A stretch of 64,000 nt of DNA, from assembly GCF_040026395.1 (NCBI RefSeq), contig NZ_CP157278.1, positions 5,985,700 through 6,049,699 on the forward strand, in the 5' to 3' direction. The position numbers were made by a program, and so were the translations under genes. This DNA comes from Pedobacter lusitanus. Its GTDB lineage: Bacteria > Bacteroidota > Bacteroidia > Sphingobacteriales > Sphingobacteriaceae. Shown here piece after piece: positions 3,779 through 62,414 of this stretch (position 1 is its first letter; the number at the start of each line of letters is the position of its first letter). The notes below the pieces were generated by a model. It did no database searches. It saw nothing but the letters and a program-made list of their open reading frames with translations, and was not told the origin of the DNA.

Positions 3779-6700
3779 TTATAGGCCTATTTGAACACCA
3801 AACGAAATTCCTCTGTTAAGTGCATATTCCATACGATTAAATTGTTCGGGGTCAAAATTTTCATACATTTTTGTGAATTCAAACAAGTTCTGGGCAGTAG
3901 CATAGATGCGAAGTCTGTTGATCTTTACTTTGTTAAGCAGCGACTGAGGGAGGGAGTAACCCAATGTCATCTGTTTCATCCTCAGGTAAGCCCCGCTTTG
4001 CAGATATTTACTCTGTACAAGATAATTCCCACCTCCGCTGAATCGCAAACGAGGGAAATATGCATTTGTGTTTTCGGGAGTCCAATAATTACCAACAAGC
4101 GCCTCTGTTGGGGCGCCGTACTGATCAGAGTAACCCCAAAAAAAATTTCCGCCTAAGGCAATATCCCGTTTGCCGATTCCCTGAAGAAACATGGTGAAAT
4201 CAAAGTTTTTATATTGGAAAGTTGCATTAAGACTATATTGGTAGCGGGGAGTGCTGTTGCCGATTATTTTCTGGTCACCTGGATCAGATAAGGTGCCTTT
4301 GCCACGGGTAATTTTTCCATCACCATTTAGATCCCTATACTGGATATCTCCTGCCAGCCAGGTTCCTCCCCAGATTGCACTATTGTTTACTTTAGCAGCA
4401 TCTGCATTGCTTTGATAGAATCCCTGAGTTTCGAATCCCCAGATATCACCAAACTTGTTACCTACATAATAATTATTAATTAACCCGTTTGGGTTGTTAA
4501 ATCGGGTAATAACTGCACTATAATCTGATAATGCTGCAACCAGATTGTAAGTAAAGTCTTTACCGATATGATCTTTCCAGCCTAAACTTAGTTCAAAACC
4601 TTTCGTTTCCAGATCTGCAGCATTTTGATTGGGCACTCCGGTACCTAGTACTGTAGGCAGTGGGCTTCCTGCAACAATCATATCCTTTGTTTGCCTGATA
4701 TAATAATCAAACGTACCGGTTAAACGATTGTTTAAAAGGCCGAAATCAATACCGATATTTTTTGAAGTAACTTTTTCCCAGGAGAAGTCAGCGCCGATCA
4801 GTCCCGGAGCTGAAACAATTGTTTGTTGTTGACCCCCGAAAATATAGCTTCCTATTCCGGAATCCATGTTGGCGATGTAAGGATAACTATTCTTTAATTG
4901 CTGGTTACCTAAAGTTCCATATGAAGTCCTTATTTTAAATTCACTAACAACTATTTTTAAAGGCTCAAAAAAATTTTCTTGTGAAAGTCTCCATCCTGCA
5001 GAAAACGAGGGCTGAAAAGTATAACGATGTCCTCTCGCAAAACGTGATGTCCCGTCATAACGTCCGTTTATCTCGAGTAAATACTTCCCATCGTAAACAT
5101 AATTTAATCGAAAGAAAGAACCTGAAACAGCCCATTCATCTATTGATCCTCCGACATTGGGTTTCAAATCACTATTTAGATTAATAACTGGTATATCCTG
5201 ACTAATCAGGCTTTTTACGCTGGCATTAAACGCCTTAATCTGCTTTAATTCCTGATTATACCCAACCATGGCCTTTAAATAATGTTTTGCACCAAAAGTA
5301 TTCTCATACTGTGCGTATGAATTTAAAGCAACATACCTGTCGTTATTGTTTGCTTCAAATACTTTCGGGGTAGCAGTCCAGGGATATGGGCCAAGTGAAG
5401 TACCGTTAAAGCCGTATTCGTCAAAAGATTTTGTATTTGTTGTGTTGTTATAGGTATAAGAGTTCCAGGTGTAATCTGTAATAATTTTTACATTTTTAAA
5501 AGGCTTTAATTCGATGCCTCCGGTTAGCCACAGGTCATTTGATTTAGTAATAGACCGTCCATTATCATTAAGAATGTGCAAAACATTACTATAATCTCCT
5601 TGTCCGGCATAATGTCCATCCGGGTTAAACACAGGCATAATAGAACGCGAATCATTGAACAGACTTTCAATAGGTGTAATTGTTCCATTATTAAAGTCTA
5701 AACCTGATGGACTATTGTCATCTACGCGGTTTAAAAGCATACTTACATTTAGGTTTAACCAGGGCCGTATGGCTGAGTTTAATTTTAAACTGGCATTATA
5801 CTTATTATACTCCTGGTTCGCAGCTTTAAGTACACCTGTTTGATTAAGATAACCAAATGAGCCAATATAGGTTGTATTTTCACTTCCTCCACTTACAGAT
5901 ATATTATGCTGTATTTGGGGTGCATATCCTGGGTAAGTTTCTTTTATCCAGTTCGTATTGGCGACATACCTGTATTTATTAGGATTGGCAGGGTCTTGAT
6001 ATGCTCCATTTGCCAATATCGGATTATTAATATATTCCTGTGCCTTCTGTAAATCCAAATCGGTAAACGGATTACCTGCTGTTTCACCTCCTGATATGGC
6101 ACCAGTTTTATCTGCTTCCATAAATGTCCTGATGTAATCAACCGAGTTCATGGTTCGTGGTAACCTGGTTGGCCGGGTTAGTGTATAGTCTAATGAATAA
6201 GTAACTTGTGCCGGGGTGTTTTTTTTTCCCTTCTTGGTAGTAATCAATACAACACCATAGGCAGCTCTTACACCATAAATTGCTGAAGCAGAAGCGTCTT
6301 TTAAAACGGTTACATTTTCAACATTATTTGGATTAATTAGGTTAGGATCCATTTGTACACCATCAACCAATATTAATGGCGTTCCTCCATTAATTGAAGT
6401 TATTCCACGGATATTAAATTCAGACCCTGATCCGGGCTTTCCGTTACCAACAGTAATATTAAGATTTGGGATTAATCCCTGCAAGCCTTGTCCAATATTT
6501 GTTATGGGACGACTCTCCAGAGCTTTGCCATCAACAGAAGCAATAGCGCCGGTTAAATTTACTTTTTTTTGTGTTCCATAACCTACTACCACTACATCGT
6601 CTAATAAGCCGGGCTCCTGGATCATTTTAATGGTTATAACAGAACTAACTTTGATTTCTACTGCGGTGTATCCTACATAGAAGGCAGAGAGAATAGCATC

Positions 6701-10487: not shown

Positions 10488-10560
10488 TGATCCCGCTGGG
10501 ATTCGAACCCAGGACCACTACATTAAAAGTGTAATGCTCTACCAGCTGAGCTACGGAATC
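10488..10560 (-). tRNA. tRNA-Lys (anticodon TTT)
   Basis: A 73-nt cloverleaf on the minus strand. The acceptor stem is GATTCCG / CGGGATC with one G-T pair, the D-arm GCTC-AGCTGGTA-GAGC, the anticodon arm TTACA-CTTTTAA-TGTAG with anticodon TTT, and the T-arm CTGGG-TTCGAAT-CCCAG. The discriminator base is A and CCA is not encoded. The 3' end faces the integrase remnant, so this tRNA is the likely former attachment site of the element. Confidence 0.96.
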
Positions 10561-58082: not shown

Positions 58083-58118
58083 ATCACTATGAACAGGATA
58101 TATCCTGTTCATAGTGAT
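58083..58118. terminator. 36-bp perfect palindrome at the end of the WYL gene
   Basis: ATCACTATGAACAGGATA followed at once by its complement TATCCTGTTCATAGTGAT. It covers the last codons of the WYL gene (stop at 58087-58089) and should end transcription from both sides, though T runs are absent. Confidence 0.6.
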
Positions 58119-59115
58119 TGCTGGCTGCAGACAGCCGCCTTTTTATTTTATTAACCAGTAAACGGGGAGCGATCACTTTAACAGCCTCTCCGAAACCCAG
58201 AATTTCACGTTCCAGCTCAAAATTCAACACCACATCAATACGAAAAACAGTGCTTTTTTCATTTTTACTGATTACTGTCTGAGACTGATGAATAGGTTTT
58301 GTAATTACATAGGGAGAATGTGTATTCTCAAATTCCAGAATAACCTTTTGAGCCCGGTCATTTTCACTTTTGGTAACTCCGAGCAGATCATCAAAATAAC
58401 GGTCAAAATCAATACCCTGATAAGCAATGAATTCTTCATTCGGTAACTCCTGGAATTCTATAATCCTGTCCAGTGCTAAAGTCATCAGTCCGTTTTTTTT
58501 CTTTGCTTTGACTATCAGAAACCAGCGGTTCCGGTATTCTTTCAGTAAATAAGGGTAGTAAATTCCCTGTTGAGACAGCTGTGCTTTAAAGGATTTGTAT
58601 TCGATCAGTAATGACCGCTTATTTAAAATAGCCTGATATAAAGCCGGAATACAGGATAATCCTTTAACCAGTTTGTTACTTTCCAGCTGAATATGATTTC
58701 CGCTCTGTCTGGTCGATTTGTTCAGATTGTTTTCCAGACGTGCAATCATATCACTCATGTCGTCGAAATAGTTAAAAGCGGTGAACTGTTTTAAAACACC
58801 AACAATTTCTTTCATTTTATCTACATCAGTATTGTTGATCGGAACCTTTGTAATACTATAGGTTGTATCCTCATAAAGATAAAAACGTCTGTCTTTGACA
58901 ACAATCGGTGCATTATAACCCAGCTTATCACTTCTCATTAACTGAATATCGGCCTGTATGGTACGTTTGCTTACACCGGTAGTGATCCCTTCGAGTTCAT
59001 AAAGGGCGCTGGAAACTTTTTCAATCAGGTCTTCCAATGTCCATTTGCGGAAGCGGTTTTTTAAACAATCGTCAATTGTTTTATAGCGGATTAATGCGAG
59101 TTTATGAATAGCCAT
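58087..59115 (-). CDS. HTH/WYL-domain transcriptional regulator
   Basis: 342 residues. N-terminal winged HTH (about 5-85; TLEDLIEKVSSALYELEGITTGVSKRTIQADIQLMRSDKLGYNAPI). The WYL part covers about 165-250 (IPALYQAILNKRSLLIEYKSF, YYPYLLKEYRNRWFLIVKAKK) with a C-terminal WCX-like domain (KVILEFENTHSPYVITKPIHQSQTVI). WYL domains bind small ligands or nucleic acid and often control DNA-damage or defence genes. It is divergent from the slipin-rtcB pair, with two copies of CTGCGCAG-N6-TGCGTA in between, one close to its own start; it is the natural candidate to control that operon. In Proteobacteria the sigma54 activator RtcR fills that place. Confidence 0.88.
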   Translation of the reverse strand: MAIHKLALIRYKTIDDCLKNRFRKWTLEDLIEKVSSALYELEGITTGVSKRTIQADIQLMRSDKLGYNAPIVVKDRRFYLYEDTTYSITKVPINNTDVDKMKEIVGVLKQFTAFNYFDDMSDMIARLENNLNKSTRQSGNHIQLESNKLVKGLSCIPALYQAILNKRSLLIEYKSFKAQLSQQGIYYPYLLKEYRNRWFLIVKAKKKNGLMTLALDRIIEFQELPNEEFIAYQGIDFDRYFDDLLGVTKSENDRAQKVILEFENTHSPYVITKPIHQSQTVISKNEKSTVFRIDVVLNFELEREILGFGEAVKVIAPRLLVNKIKRRLSAASNHYEQDISCS

Positions 59116-59177
59116 AAGGAGCAGATTTCAAAAATGGAAGATAATTCCTGCTGTAAATATAGAGATTAGAATTTTAT

Positions 59178-59197
59178 CTGCGCAGTGTAATTGCGTA
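59178..59197. promoter_or_regulatory. Operator-like site 1 (CTGCGCAG-N6-TGCGTA)
   Basis: CTGCGCAG at 59178-59185, a six-base spacer, TGCGTA at 59192-59197. An identical arrangement stands 114 bp further on. This copy is 63 bp before the WYL start codon, so it could serve autoregulation. Confidence 0.65.
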
Positions 59198-59291
59198 GTT
59201 GTCTTGTTTTAAACCCTGTTATAGAATTATTTTAATTTTATATTTCTGATTATTAGTTGATTATGTTTTTTTTGTTGTTGAATGATTTTTA

Positions 59292-59311
59292 CTGCGCAGA
59301 TATACTGCGTA
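59292..59311. promoter_or_regulatory. Operator-like site 2 (CTGCGCAG-N6-TGCGTA)
   Basis: CTGCGCAG at 59292-59299, six-base spacer, TGCGTA at 59306-59311. A -7-like box CATATTTG (59322-59329; seven of eight positions of TAnnTTTG) follows 10 bp later, with no TTTG at -33. That fits an activator-dependent promoter for the slipin-rtcB leader, with a start near 59336. Confidence 0.6.
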
Positions 59312-59520
59312 TAAGCACCTGCATATTTGTAATGTCGCTCAGCGATATGGTTCTTTGATAAATTTTATAACAATATAAAGATATTCCCGAAAGGGGATGG
59401 CAGCCTCATGATTTCCTGTCCATAGTTGAGGGTTTCTGTATAGCCCCATAGTATTAATGCAATTGCAATTAATATACTGACATGGATTTTATGATCAGCT
59501 GTTGTTTAATGCTGCGTGTC

Positions 59521-59537
59521 GTGGGTTCGAATCCCAC
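59521..59537 (+). ncRNA. Isolated tRNA T-arm (first tRNA-like part)
   Basis: GTGGG-TTCGAAT-CCCAC is a perfect five-pair T-arm with the canonical TTCGAAT loop. A CAGC/GCTG hairpin with an 11-nt loop precedes it in the place of an anticodon arm, but no D-arm or seven-pair acceptor stem could be found. It looks like a reduced or incomplete tRNA-like unit. Confidence 0.65.
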
Positions 59538-59540
59538 TCC

Positions 59541-59603
59541 TGGAAACAGGATAGATCAGTGGTAGATCATCAGCTTAACCTGCAGGTTCGAATCCTGTTT
59601 CCA
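59541..59603 (+). ncRNA. tRNA-like RNA fold (tRNA mimic) upstream of slipin-rtcB
   Basis: A 63-nt unit with tRNA landmarks. The D-arm is GATC-AGTGGTA-GATC (59554-59568), whose loop holds the conserved GG and A, and the T-arm is GCAGG-TTCGAAT-CCTGT (59582-59598). The anticodon arm is reduced to CAG-CTTAAC-CTG. The ends pair as GGAA/TTCC and are followed by an A, giving an in-sequence CCA at 59601-59603. The ends can also form an exact 12-bp helix, TGGAAACAGGAT (59541-59552) with ATCCTGTTTCCA (59592-59603), which breaks the T-arm. It cannot decode. D-loop GG plus TTCGAAT should allow the tRNA elbow. Confidence 0.7.
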
Positions 59604-59732
59604 ATTTGATTGGAATCGCATAACTGGTATTGCAAAGCCGGACGAAAGTCCACTAAAAAGACGACAAATTTCAAATGTCTTAAACCTGGCGCTGCAAATC
59701 GCATTTGGCTGAAAGGGATTTATAATACCCTG

Positions 59733-59797
59733 AAGCAATTTGAATTTTGCTTTGCAGGTGAAAAGGAAGAAGAAGGAATTTGAAAATCAAATTGCTT
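59733..59797 (+). ncRNA. Long stem-loop in the slipin-rtcB leader
   Basis: AAGCAATTTGAATTTT (59733-59748) pairs with AAAATCAAATTGCTT (59783-59797) over 15 pairs with one bulged A. The loop holds a purine-rich stretch (GAAAAGGAAGAAGAAGGAA) that could bind protein or anti-Shine-Dalgarno sequences. Confidence 0.6.
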
Positions 59798-59888
59798 AAA
59801 AACAGAAAGACAATAGCTGTAAAGGATATTGGTCTGCCTGTCTAAAGTATATTTCATCCTTAAAGACGTTGTTTTTCCATTTACCTCC

Positions 59889-59913
59889 GCAAAAGAGAAT
59901 GAGTGTCTTTTGC
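59889..59913 (+). promoter_or_regulatory. Hairpin 27 bp before the slipin start codon
   Basis: GCAAAAGA (59889-59896) and TCTTTTGC (59906-59913) form an 8-bp stem. There is no T run after it, so it is more likely a processing or translation-control element than a terminator. Confidence 0.45.
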
Positions 59914-59940
59914 AGCGCTTTATGATCAATTAATTAAATC

Positions 59941-61068
59941 ATGTCAGTTGAAGCTGACAAAAAAAAAGATAATATGAAAAGAGTTACGATAGGTACCAAC
60001 TATGTTGGACTGGTATTTAAAAATGGAAAATTAAAAAGAGTATTGACTGAAGGGAATTACTGGATAGTTTTTGGTGAGACTATCGAAATACATAATATGG
60101 CTTTAGCTTATAACGCTAAAACAGATCTGGATGTATTGTTGCAAAACAGTGATTTTGCGGGCTTATTGAATGTAATAGAGGTTGATGATAATGAACTGGT
60201 ACTGGTTTATTCGCATAAAAATTTCAAGAATGTACTGGCTGCAGGCAGACACGCTATCTGGAAAGGTTTATCAGATTATACTTTTATCAGAGTAAATACC
60301 AGCCAGATAGAAATTGATGCTGCTATTGATAAAAACCTGCTGGAGAAAGCGCCGTTGTTGAATTATATCCGTGCCTATAAGGTTGATTCCTTTGAAAAAG
60401 CGCTATTATTTATAGATGGAAAATTTGAAAGAATAATGGAACCGGGGAACTATGCTTACTGGAAAAACAGTACGGCTGTTCAGGTCTTTAAATCAGATAT
60501 GAGACAGCTGAATATGGAGATCACCGGACAGGAGATTCTGACTAAGGATAAAGCCCAGCTGAGAGTGAACTTCAATGTTCAGTATAAGGTGACCGATATT
60601 ATCAAAGCACTAATGGAGAATAAGGAATTTGATAAACAGCTCTATGTGCTTGTTCAGCTTGCCCTGAGAGAATGTATCGGAATGATGACCTTTGATGAGT
60701 TAATGGAAAGCAAAGAAAAGATTGTCGGTCAGCTGATGACGATAACAGCCGGAAAGTTTGATGTCTTAGGGGTTAAAATAGTCAGCTGTGGTCTTAAGGA
60801 TATTATTTTACCAGGTGATATCAGAGAGATTATGAACCAGGTTCTGGTGGCAGAGAAAAGGGCGCAGGCCAATCTGATAACCAGGAGGGAAGAAACCGCT
60901 TCAACCAGAAGTTTGCTGAACACAGCTAAACTGATGGAAGATAACAGTATGTTATATAAACTGAAGGAAATGGAGTATGTAGAGAAGATTGCTGAAAAAA
61001 TCAATAATATCAGTTTATCAGGAAGCGGGCAACTGGTAGATCAGTTAAAACAAATCTTCGTTAAATAA
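59941..61068 (+). CDS. Slipin-like SPFH/band-7 protein with repeated N-terminal motif
   Basis: 375 residues. The N-terminal half has three versions of one unit: VGLVFKNGKLKRVLTEGNYW (22-41), LVLVYSHKNFKNVLAAGRHAIW (86-107) and KALLFIDGKFERIMEPGNYAYW (153-174). The SPFH part follows (about 180-350; GQEILTKDKAQLRVNFNVQYKV, VAEKRAQANLITRREETASTRSLLNTAKLM). The usual N-terminal membrane anchor of slipins is absent, so it may be cytosolic or peripheral. The next gene is rtcB, 58 bp downstream. Slipin genes next to rtcB are known from several bacteria; their part in RNA repair is unclear. An in-frame ATG at 59974 is an alternative start. Confidence 0.85.
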   Translation: MSVEADKKKDNMKRVTIGTNYVGLVFKNGKLKRVLTEGNYWIVFGETIEIHNMALAYNAKTDLDVLLQNSDFAGLLNVIEVDDNELVLVYSHKNFKNVLAAGRHAIWKGLSDYTFIRVNTSQIEIDAAIDKNLLEKAPLLNYIRAYKVDSFEKALLFIDGKFERIMEPGNYAYWKNSTAVQVFKSDMRQLNMEITGQEILTKDKAQLRVNFNVQYKVTDIIKALMENKEFDKQLYVLVQLALRECIGMMTFDELMESKEKIVGQLMTITAGKFDVLGVKIVSCGLKDIILPGDIREIMNQVLVAEKRAQANLITRREETASTRSLLNTAKLMEDNSMLYKLKEMEYVEKIAEKINNISLSGSGQLVDQLKQIFVK

Positions 61069-61126
61069 TTAGTAAAAACGTCCTGGTCAGCTGAATGATG
61101 GCGGCCAGGAAATAACAGGGTATAAA

Positions 61127-62359
61127 ATGAGAAATATAAATAAAAGTGCTGAGTTAACAGAAGAAACTATAGCACTGAATGAACATGGTATAGATTACTC
61201 CGTTTATGGAGCAGAACATATAGAAGAAGGAGCCAGAAAACAAATGGATGTGGCTATGAAATTACCGGTGAGTGTAGCCGGAGCTTTAATGCCGGATGCG
61301 CATCAGGGATACGGATTGCCAATAGGCGGGGTGCTGGCCACACGAAATGCCATTATTCCTTATGGAGTGGGGGTAGATATCGGGTGCAGAATGGCACTGA
61401 GTATTTTTGATATTCCTGGTGATAACTATTTTGGAAACGATGCAAAATATAAGCGGGAGTTAATAGCCCATACCAAATTTGGCGCAGGTCAAAGTTTTAA
61501 AGGAAGTGAAAGAGCAGAACATGCTGTTCTTGACCGCGAAGAGTTTGGTTCCATCAGGTTTTTAAAAGGCCTGTTTGACAAAGCTTACGGACAATTAGGG
61601 ACTTCCGGAGGTGGAAATCACTTTGCTGAATGGGGAATCATAGAATTTGCTGAGCGCGATGAAGTACTCAACATTGATAAAGGACGCTATGTCGCCCTAT
61701 TGACGCATTCCGGTTCCAGAGGTTTTGGAGCAACTGTAGCCGATTATTATACCAAACTGGCGAAAAGCCTGTGTAAATTGCCTAAGGAAACTGAAAATCT
61801 GGCCTATCTCGATTTAAATAGTGAAGCCGGAATAGAATACTGGATAGCGATGAATTTAGCAGGTGACTATGCCTCTGCATGCCATGAGGTGATCCATAAA
61901 CGATTAACTAAAGCTATTGGTGCAGAGGTGCTGGCTAAAGTTGAAAATCATCACAATTTTGCCTGGAAAGAAACATTGAATGGTGAAGAGCTGATTGTAC
62001 ACCGGAAAGGTGCTACACCAGCCGGTAAAGGAGTTCTGGGGATTATTCCGGGAAGTATGACTGCACCTGGGTTTCTGGTCAGAGGAAAAGGAGAGGTGAA
62101 TTCAATTTATTCAGCTTCGCATGGAGCAGGAAGACAAATGAGCCGTAAAAAAGCACATGCAAATATTAGCCGGGAAGAAATGAAGGCTGTATTGAAAGCC
62201 CATGATGTCATGCTGATTGGTGCCGGACTGGATGAGGCGCCAATGGCCTACAAGGATATTAACAAAGTAATGGCCGCTCAAACCGAACTGGTTGATGTGT
62301 TAGCCAGATTTGAACCTAAAATGGTACGTATGGCAGATGACGGGAGTCGTGAGGATTAA
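61127..62359 (+). CDS. rtcB: RtcB RNA ligase
   Basis: 410 residues. The Mn/GTP-dependent RtcB core is complete: GVGVDIGCRM with metal ligand C87, TSGGGNHFAEWG (H165), LLTHSGSRGFG (H194), VENHHNFAW, VHRKGATPAGKGVLGIIPGSM, and YSASHGAGRQMSR with H332 at the position that is guanylylated in E. coli RtcB. It ends in LIGAGLDEAPMAYKDINKVM, also conserved. It joins 2',3'-cyclic phosphate or 3'-phosphate ends to 5'-OH ends, as made by anticodon nucleases and other toxins. No RtcA, archease, Ro60 or RtcR gene is present; the partners here are slipin, the tRNA-like leader and a WYL regulator. Confidence 0.95.
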   Translation: MRNINKSAELTEETIALNEHGIDYSVYGAEHIEEGARKQMDVAMKLPVSVAGALMPDAHQGYGLPIGGVLATRNAIIPYGVGVDIGCRMALSIFDIPGDNYFGNDAKYKRELIAHTKFGAGQSFKGSERAEHAVLDREEFGSIRFLKGLFDKAYGQLGTSGGGNHFAEWGIIEFAERDEVLNIDKGRYVALLTHSGSRGFGATVADYYTKLAKSLCKLPKETENLAYLDLNSEAGIEYWIAMNLAGDYASACHEVIHKRLTKAIGAEVLAKVENHHNFAWKETLNGEELIVHRKGATPAGKGVLGIIPGSMTAPGFLVRGKGEVNSIYSASHGAGRQMSRKKAHANISREEMKAVLKAHDVMLIGAGLDEAPMAYKDINKVMAAQTELVDVLARFEPKMVRMADDGSRED

Positions 62360-62375
62360 ACTTAAGATTCAGTTT

Positions 62376-62414
62376 AAACGACAAAGGCGTTATTTAGCAC
62401 CTTTGTCGTTTTTT
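62376..62414. terminator. Intrinsic terminator after rtcB
   Basis: AAACGACAAAGG / CCTTTGTCGTTT with a 12-nt loop and a run of six T (62409-62414), 17 bp after the rtcB stop and just before the stop of the convergent hexosaminidase gene. Confidence 0.88.

Follow-up and report, generated by a model that had tools for sequence, protein, structure and literature searches.

The leader of the slipin and rtcB genes of Pedobacter lusitanus holds a structured RNA with two circularly permuted tRNA-like domains at its centre. On balance, and with some reserve, we lean towards regarding it as a Y-RNA-like, tRNA-mimicking part of an RNA-repair system, which would act in trans as the RNA of a repair particle. 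The stretch analysed (the window, 64,000 nucleotides, to which all coordinates refer) lies at the end of a genome of 6.05 Mb in one contig (G000; GCF_040026395.1, contig NZ_CP157278.1, positions 5,985,700 to 6,049,699). The RNA is conserved and covaries among relatives, is linked to the slipin gene and follows an operator-like site. The original prediction, made from the sequence of the window alone, had proposed a conserved tRNA mimic in a gene-free gap upstream of slipin-rtcB; the gap exists, about 860 bp without a gene between the WYL regulator gene and the slipin start, and the mimic passed the test of conservation and covariation strongly. The tRNA parts named at that time, two T-arms (59521-59537 and 59582-59598) and a D-arm with GG loop (59554-59568), are present, but a second D-arm (59618-59633) had been overlooked, the T-arms belong to two permuted domains rather than to a conventional tRNA, and the whole of 59377-59921 is structured, not the tRNA parts alone. 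The features of the RNA are as follows.

59335-59921, plus strand: structured tRNA-mimic RNA or 5' leader, with a predicted 5' end; covarying fold 59377-59921 (covariation in alignment A3, see below; folding z -5.35)
59383-59398, plus strand: 5' hairpin (96% paired; 11 double-change cells vs 3.5 shuffled)
59399-59503, plus strand: 5' domain with a long-range stem, a GUUUC hairpin (59426-59449) and a hairpin at 59451-59475 (covariation)
59511-59574, plus strand: permuted tRNA domain 1, composed of anticodon stem 3' strand, T-arm, closed acceptor, UA, D-arm and anticodon stem 5' strand (covariation; Rfam YrlA, 32.9 bits)
59582-59651, plus strand: permuted tRNA domain 2, composed of T-arm, closed acceptor, D-arm and then a GGAC-GAAA-GUCC hairpin (59640-59651) (sequence, covariation)
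59689-59706, plus strand: 5' strand of a 17-bp long-range stem, pairing with 59901-59917
59901-59917, plus strand: 3' strand of the 17-bp long-range stem (69 double-change cells vs 21.4 shuffled)

The domains run in the order T-arm, acceptor 3' strand, short loop, acceptor 5' strand, UA and D-arm, and the acceptor loops are short and without a conserved CCA. In domain 1, the bases 5' of the T-arm pair with those 3' of the D-arm (GUUGU/ACAAC type) and form an anticodon stem, which is 95.3% paired over four pairs and 78% paired for the fifth in alignment A1 (48 of the 71 tandem sequences). The A1 consensus was tested against 500 shuffles and slid controls: 93.4% of the cells were paired, compared with 78.4% after shuffling and 35.1-48.4% in the slid controls, and 33 of 39 pairs had changed on both sides, with 284 double-change cells vs 70.8 shuffled and none of the 500 shuffles as high. 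RNAalifold gave the same kind of structure for all 71 tandem sequences (92.1% paired vs 75.7% shuffled; 34 of 39 pairs double-sided; 463 double-change cells vs 119.4 shuffled, maximum 154). A closing stem with a reduced anticodon arm had also been proposed, and it is not a conserved fold: the conventional acceptor stem, from the first D-arm to the second T-arm, was paired in 64.2% vs 63.4% of cells after shuffling, and 158 of 500 shuffles were as high. The permuted topology was adopted because covariation backs the permuted domains and not this conventional stem. A parser was applied to 96 loci, near duplicates among them: 183 of their 193 T-arms were followed by a closed acceptor and a GG D-arm, compared with 4 of 27 for the T-arms of tRNAs called by ARAGORN, which came from loci rich in tandem tRNAs.

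The permuted domains are embedded in a 545-nt fold, which consists of a 5' domain, the pair of tRNA-like domains and, towards the 3' end, a long-range stem. Alignment A3 comprised 33 loci of the Pedobacter group (L030, L042, L059, L062, L063 and L064 were left out) and gave 126 pairs, in which 3748 of 4109 cells were paired; the slid controls had 1597-1892 paired cells, over which the structure is favoured by being derived from the same alignment. There were 367 double-change cells, compared with a mean of 116 and a maximum of 142 in 200 shuffles, which do not keep relatedness. The hairpin at 59451-59475 is among the well-supported elements (62 double-change cells vs 20.8 shuffled), and the outermost 4-bp helix is weak (88% paired vs 85% shuffled). 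The 5' domain is recognisable also in distant loci by alignment A2, which holds 43 loci; 14 loci had no pattern match and three wrong picks (L050, L065 and L169) were left out. Its GUUUC-type hairpin covaries there (86.6% paired vs 58.0% shuffled), with the word GTTTC fixed by construction since the rows were chosen by that pattern. The window RNA alone has a folding z of -5.35, and its lone minimum-energy structure departs from the consensus.

In many relatives the last D-arm is followed by a hairpin that stands where a tRNA has its anticodon arm. The rule used asked for a single spacer base, a stem of 5 bp without mismatch and a loop of 7 nt at fixed position, and left the letters of the loop unconstrained; by it, a perfect arm was found at the last domain in 41 of 96 loci; U33 was present in 40 of these 41 (28 of 29 distinct arms) and a purine at position 37 in 36, with 14 different anticodons. 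The remaining 55 loci did not fit the rule, some of them having shorter stems or loops of 6 or 8 nt.

Standard annotation is silent on this RNA: ARAGORN and Rfam at its gathering cut-off reported only an unrelated tRNA-Lys near 10,490 in the window and nothing at the slipin leader. At a relaxed threshold, the Rfam YrlA model (RF02553) matched 59517-59568 with 32.9 bits and an E of 3.9e-5, below the gathering cut-off of 69 bits; it was the best of six Rfam matches at E up to 10 and its topology is identical. The YrlA-model scores of six relatives, 31.6-45.2 bits, were also below the cut-off. The Rfam tRNA model, likewise relaxed, matched 59549-59601 with 25.4 bits (cut-off 29), and the overlapping matches are two possible readings of the same bases. 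The T-acceptor-D module is itself known from YrlA, and we regard the slipin-leader RNA as a variant rather than a member of YrlA. According to the parts used here of the review PMC8394870, YrlA has the same permuted module of T-arm, closed acceptor and D-arm and occurs in RtcB operons, but it is 90-150 nt long compared with the 545-nt fold; here there are usually two modules and up to three, with further domains on the 5' and 3' sides, anticodon arms at many loci, a slipin as partner and normally no Ro60. In the literature searched we found no description of this RNA, though the core Y RNA literature may contain one; as far as that literature shows, the 545-nt architecture, the tandem modules, the anticodon arms of drifting identity, the linkage to slipin and the operator are new.

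The distribution was followed in 80 named loci fetched by slipin similarity, which with the window make 81 leaders; the 16 best-matching were all Pedobacter. A T-arm motif was present in 80 of the 81 leaders, with 0.006 expected per leader, and at least one permuted domain was parsed in 79 (two in 66, one in 9 and three in 4). The parser found no permuted domain in the leaders of L106 and L082. At about 4870-4970 of L106, an operator-like site is followed by a tRNA-Tyr-like sequence right before slipin, seen by eye and not reported by ARAGORN. Downstream of domain 2 in L170 and L171, more tRNA-like units, one of them class II-like, could be seen by eye, so that the array there exceeds two domains.

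Because fetching by slipin would bias the linkage, the RNA model R1 alone was scanned over 395 Bacteroidota genomes. It reached at least 94 bits, a line set after the list was seen, in 17 genomes including G000; G438 (L173, 95.1 bits) proved to be a tandem of real tRNAs and was dropped, leaving 16 clear cases of 395. Raw matches at E 0.001, found in 379 of 395, are discounted as evidence because tandem tRNAs also match the model. Below the line, where L176 and L177 also fall, L175 consists of real tRNAs and L178 adjoins Ro60, and known single-domain or divergent cases (L094, L074, L098, L072, L081 and L128) score 44-67 bits; 16 of 395 is therefore a lower bound, since such true cases may hide there. 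In G000 itself, one copy scored strongly (118.7 bits) and six other matches weakly (24.6-38.5 bits). In all 16 clear genomes a slipin open reading frame (ORF) lay 250-497 nt downstream on the same strand, and RtcB was encoded somewhere in 15 of these 16 genomes.

The gene neighbourhood points to RNA repair. In the flanks, which reached up to 5 kb and less where a contig was short, an RtcB-like ORF was present at 73 and a WYL-like ORF at 66 of the 80 named loci; the scanned representatives of two ORF families (24 and 23 loci) were RlaP (PF10127), and that of a third family (3 loci) was a Rnl1-type ligase. The absence of RtcR, RtcA and Ro60 noted in the original prediction is correct for the host genome (no match in G000 at E 0.001 to PF06956, PF01137 or PF05731) but incomplete for the class of loci, as Ro60 stands beside the same RNA in the fetched flanks of 4 of the 80 named loci; three of these (L062, L076 and L080) carry additional YrlA-like RNAs, and L052 has none at the threshold used. 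Two further loci, from genomes of the same genus (L126 and L127), have the order WYL, operator, Ro60, two YrlA-like RNAs, RlaP in L127 only, and RtcB, with no slipin at the locus and, in the genome of L127 (G027), no slipin match genome-wide. Their YrlA-like RNAs lie between Ro60 and the next repair gene (4778-5473 in L126, genome G060; 4123-4942 in L127), fall below the Rfam cut-off and are likely unannotated Y RNAs. Slipin with the large RNA and Ro60 with YrlA-like RNAs look like exchangeable modules, because L126 and L127 carry the latter in the place of the former. The earlier proposal that a WYL protein and a slipin take the place of RtcR, RtcA and Ro60 is borne out for WYL, which stands at the place of RtcR; as to Ro60, these two loci likewise show it to be incomplete.

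The genes and control sites flanking the RNA in the window are as follows.

58087-59115, minus strand: WYL/WCX-domain transcription regulator, divergent (Pfam PF13280, E 7.2e-10; PF25583, E 4.8e-9)
59179-59197, no strand: putative WYL operator 1, TRCGYA-N7-TRCGYA, on the WYL side (conserved site)
59293-59311, no strand: putative WYL operator 2, immediately before the RNA promoter and spaced 114 bp from operator 1
59326-59329, plus strand: TTTG, presumed Bacteroidota-type -7 promoter element, 14 nt after the operator
59974-61068, plus strand: slipin (SPFH/Band_7), probable true start (PF01145, E 5.3e-26; start by alignment)
61127-62359, plus strand: RtcB RNA ligase (PF01139, E 9.9e-79; DIGCRM, GGGNHF, HSGSRG, ENHHNF and HGAGR motifs)

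Pfam thus matched all three identities given earlier: WYL, slipin (Band_7) and RtcB, the last by PF01139 together with its conserved motifs, which we take to be catalytic. The operon is not of the RtcR type, in which RtcR and RtcA accompany RtcB, PF06956 and PF01137 being absent from G000. The slipin start is most likely 59974 rather than 59941, because the conserved MKRV start of its relatives aligns there, and the protein is similar to stomatins from entries with 16 chains. Of 78 loci, 68 have a TRCGYA-N7-TRCGYA site in the interval from WYL to the RNA, compared with 2 sites in 383,398 bp of control sequence. Twenty-six loci have two sites, spaced by 100/101 (6), 110-114 (15), 122 (2) or 133 bp (3), in steps of about one helical turn. 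WYL would bind this site, judging from its position, its conservation and the divergence of the genes. The first TTTG, which we assume to be the -7 element, follows 13-14 nt after the operator in 35 of the 68 loci having one, and the transcript probably starts at about 59335. Other operator-like sites elsewhere in G000 are L123-L125.

Slipin relatives were also found on plasmid records, of which H1, H2, H3, H4 and H6 were examined among the seven with at least 80% coverage; phage records gave no slipin match. Outside Bacteroidota, T-arm motifs were present in the leader at five of five loci, and eight of the nine plus-strand motifs of the five 11-kb stretches fell there. In E. coli (L179) and Citrobacter (L180), one T-arm and a closed acceptor-like hairpin lie between slipin-RlaP and a promoter motif that we take to be sigma-54-like; rtcR is divergent in Citrobacter, where the putative RlaP is named nucleotidyltransferase in the record. 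In Subdoligranulum (L181) a closed acceptor accompanies the T-arm; Burkholderia (L182, about 4217-4289) has a tRNA-like unit of conventional order with a GAAA tetraloop as anticodon loop, about 280 nt before the likely slipin start at 4551, and Photobacterium (L183) two units of conventional order. At least 80% of the E. coli query was found in 1617 of 5426 complete E. coli genomes (about 30%), strain HS included, and the Citrobacter leader matched 1624 of the 5426 complete genomes, with no annotated feature among the 12 matches listed. The E. coli leader, an unannotated stretch of roughly 260 nt with the presumed sigma-54-like promoter, had its T-arm confirmed in four records (L179, L184, L185 and L186). 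It is only suggestive as a tRNA mimic because D-arms are not evident in the E. coli leaders and, between two diverged E. coli lineages, 9 of 96 pairs were compensatory and 24 cells were unpaired. In L184-L186, the gene after slipin-RlaP belongs to the zeta-toxin family.

We propose that a slipin-rtcB transcript under WYL control would begin with this RNA, which would probably be processed or folded as a unit. Its tandem domains would present the tRNA elbow of T-loop and D-loop, in many species together with an anticodon arm, and, because a hairpin seals the acceptor end, they should be neither chargeable nor usable by the ribosome. Elbow and anticodon arm could then attract proteins that act on tRNA, and the RNA, working in trans like a Y RNA, may recruit or bait tRNA-cutting nucleases, RtcB and RlaP to a ring-forming slipin. 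The slipin would thereby fill the ring-protein role of Ro60, whose position with YrlA-like RNAs is seen in the sister operons. The slipin-leader RNA probably has a role in how tRNA damage is sensed, baited or repaired. YrlA tethers PNPase to the ring-shaped Rsr (review PMC8394870, in part), and the rsr-yrlBA-rtcBA operon of Salmonella likewise has RtcB with a tRNA-mimic RNA and a divergent regulator, but here WYL stands for RtcR, RtcA is missing and slipin, often with RlaP, replaces Rsr (PMC7790460, in part). In Anabaena, the slipin alr0740, rtcB all3526 and a 26-tRNA operon are induced by chloramphenicol and share TrcR, one translation-stress repressor; that repressor is of the RHH type, the tRNA operon lies on a megaplasmid, and the parts of PMC10272220 used here mention no mimic. 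A tRNA-repair setting is likely by analogy with the YrlA and Anabaena literature, with which a bait, a scaffold and a cis sensor are all compatible.

Four alternatives or refinements have to be weighed against this. The leader could be a cis-acting sensor: proteins that bind tRNA, enzymes that modify it or anticodon nucleases would bind the mimic or cut it, and the translation or stability of the slipin-rtcB mRNA would change as a result. In all 16 clear loci of the phylum scan the RNA precedes slipin and reads in the same direction, which agrees with this, as do the end of the fold about 50 nt before the start and the lack of any terminator found between the RNA and slipin; however, the A3 consensus fold excludes the slipin start region, RtcB lies upstream of the RNA in four named loci (L069, L072, L081 and L097), and the relatives of YrlA work as separate RNAs in the part used of PMC8394870. 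We hold cis sensing to be unlikely. A sharper form of the repair-particle reading, in which domain 2 would be cut by anticodon nucleases instead of real tRNAs and be resealed by RtcB or RlaP, with the anticodon drifting along with the local nucleases, is possible though still on the unlikely side. It would explain why U33 and purine 37 are kept while the anticodons vary, and tRNA genes lie within some loci, but a perfect arm at the fixed position is limited to the 41 loci above and the window has a GAAA tetraloop. From the part of PMC7790460 used here, YrlA might competitively inhibit an anticodon nuclease, and Salmonella YrlA was reportedly uncut by the nuclease studied.

That the domains are permuted tRNA genes, yielding a working tRNA after RtcB ligation and trimming of the acceptor loop, is very improbable. 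The sources on algal and archaeal permuted tRNA genes, as far as used, describe the same order, with the tRNA 3' part encoded ahead of the 5' part, and RtcB is at hand; those genes yield tRNAs, whereas here the acceptor is sealed by a short loop without conserved CCA, the domain sits inside a larger RNA, the window has no anticodon and the number of domains varies from one to three. Decayed, functionless tRNA genes would account for the tRNA parts and for the real-looking tRNAs in some operons, but the strong compensatory change and the conservation across many families refute them, and we give this explanation practically no credit.

Several observations weigh against the repair-particle reading. 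We infer transcription, WYL binding, action in trans, the protein partners and the bait role, and the terminator-free junction fits cis regulation. RtcB was within the 5-kb flanks in only 6 of the 16 clear loci, by which the RNA is tied more tightly to slipin than to RtcB, and 37 of 60 genomes of the genus already encode RtcB as a baseline. Domain 2 of the window has the tetraloop at 59640-59651 and no anticodon loop, of all helices in the tandem that of the anticodon arm is the weakest (71 loci; 74% paired, compared with 63% after shuffling), and the closest relative, G013 (L002), has one T-arm at the site of the window's two. Aminotransferase, RF3 and amidohydrolase genes recur as neighbours with no evident role in repair. 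Against reading the leaders outside Bacteroidota as tRNA mimics, R1 gave only 17.9-46.0 bits at the five loci there, and the units of L182 and L183 exceed the Rfam tRNA cut-off (42.4, 54.1 and 46.4 bits), for which reason some of them may be real or decayed tRNAs.

A wider reading, which we consider rather unlikely, would join these loci into a slipin-linked RNA family across phyla, whose sealed permuted tRNAs with interchangeable anticodon loops are held by an SPFH ring next to the repair enzymes RtcB/RlaP and serve as bait for tRNA-cutting toxins in general. Such a particle would parallel that of Ro60 and Y RNA, with slipin as its base, and a version of it would exist in about 30% of complete E. 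coli genomes, the share that carries the slipin-RlaP locus whose tRNA-like T-arm leader was seen in four records. If the repair particle holds, the puzzling association of RtcB with slipin would gain a defined RNA partner, and one scheme would cover the RtcB operons that repeatedly carry tRNA look-alikes, with Ro60 or without it. The bacterial substrates of RtcB and the role of Y-type RNAs become testable through nearly known RNA boundaries, an operator-like site, named partners and many natural variants.

tRNA genes were searched in 46 of the 80 named loci by ARAGORN and found in nine, of which L087 (opposite strand, distant) and L099 (overlapping the mimic) were set aside. The other seven (L091, L100, L088, L080, L070, L076 and L086) have their tRNA genes close to WYL-slipin-RtcB and on the same strand as the operon; these may be spare tRNAs, as those of Anabaena may be, and one of the two tRNAs of L080 overlaps a YrlA-like match. 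In another family of the class, L162 has genes for a RLIG1-like ligase, a RNase_T exonuclease and a metallophosphatase. An RNaseH_like protein (PF04308) is encoded near the RNA-slipin pair of L168 (6115-6597), and a protein of L170 (4100-4585) resembles it by eye. A WGR/DUF6493 protein is encoded near the RNA-slipin pair of L163 (6724-9813).

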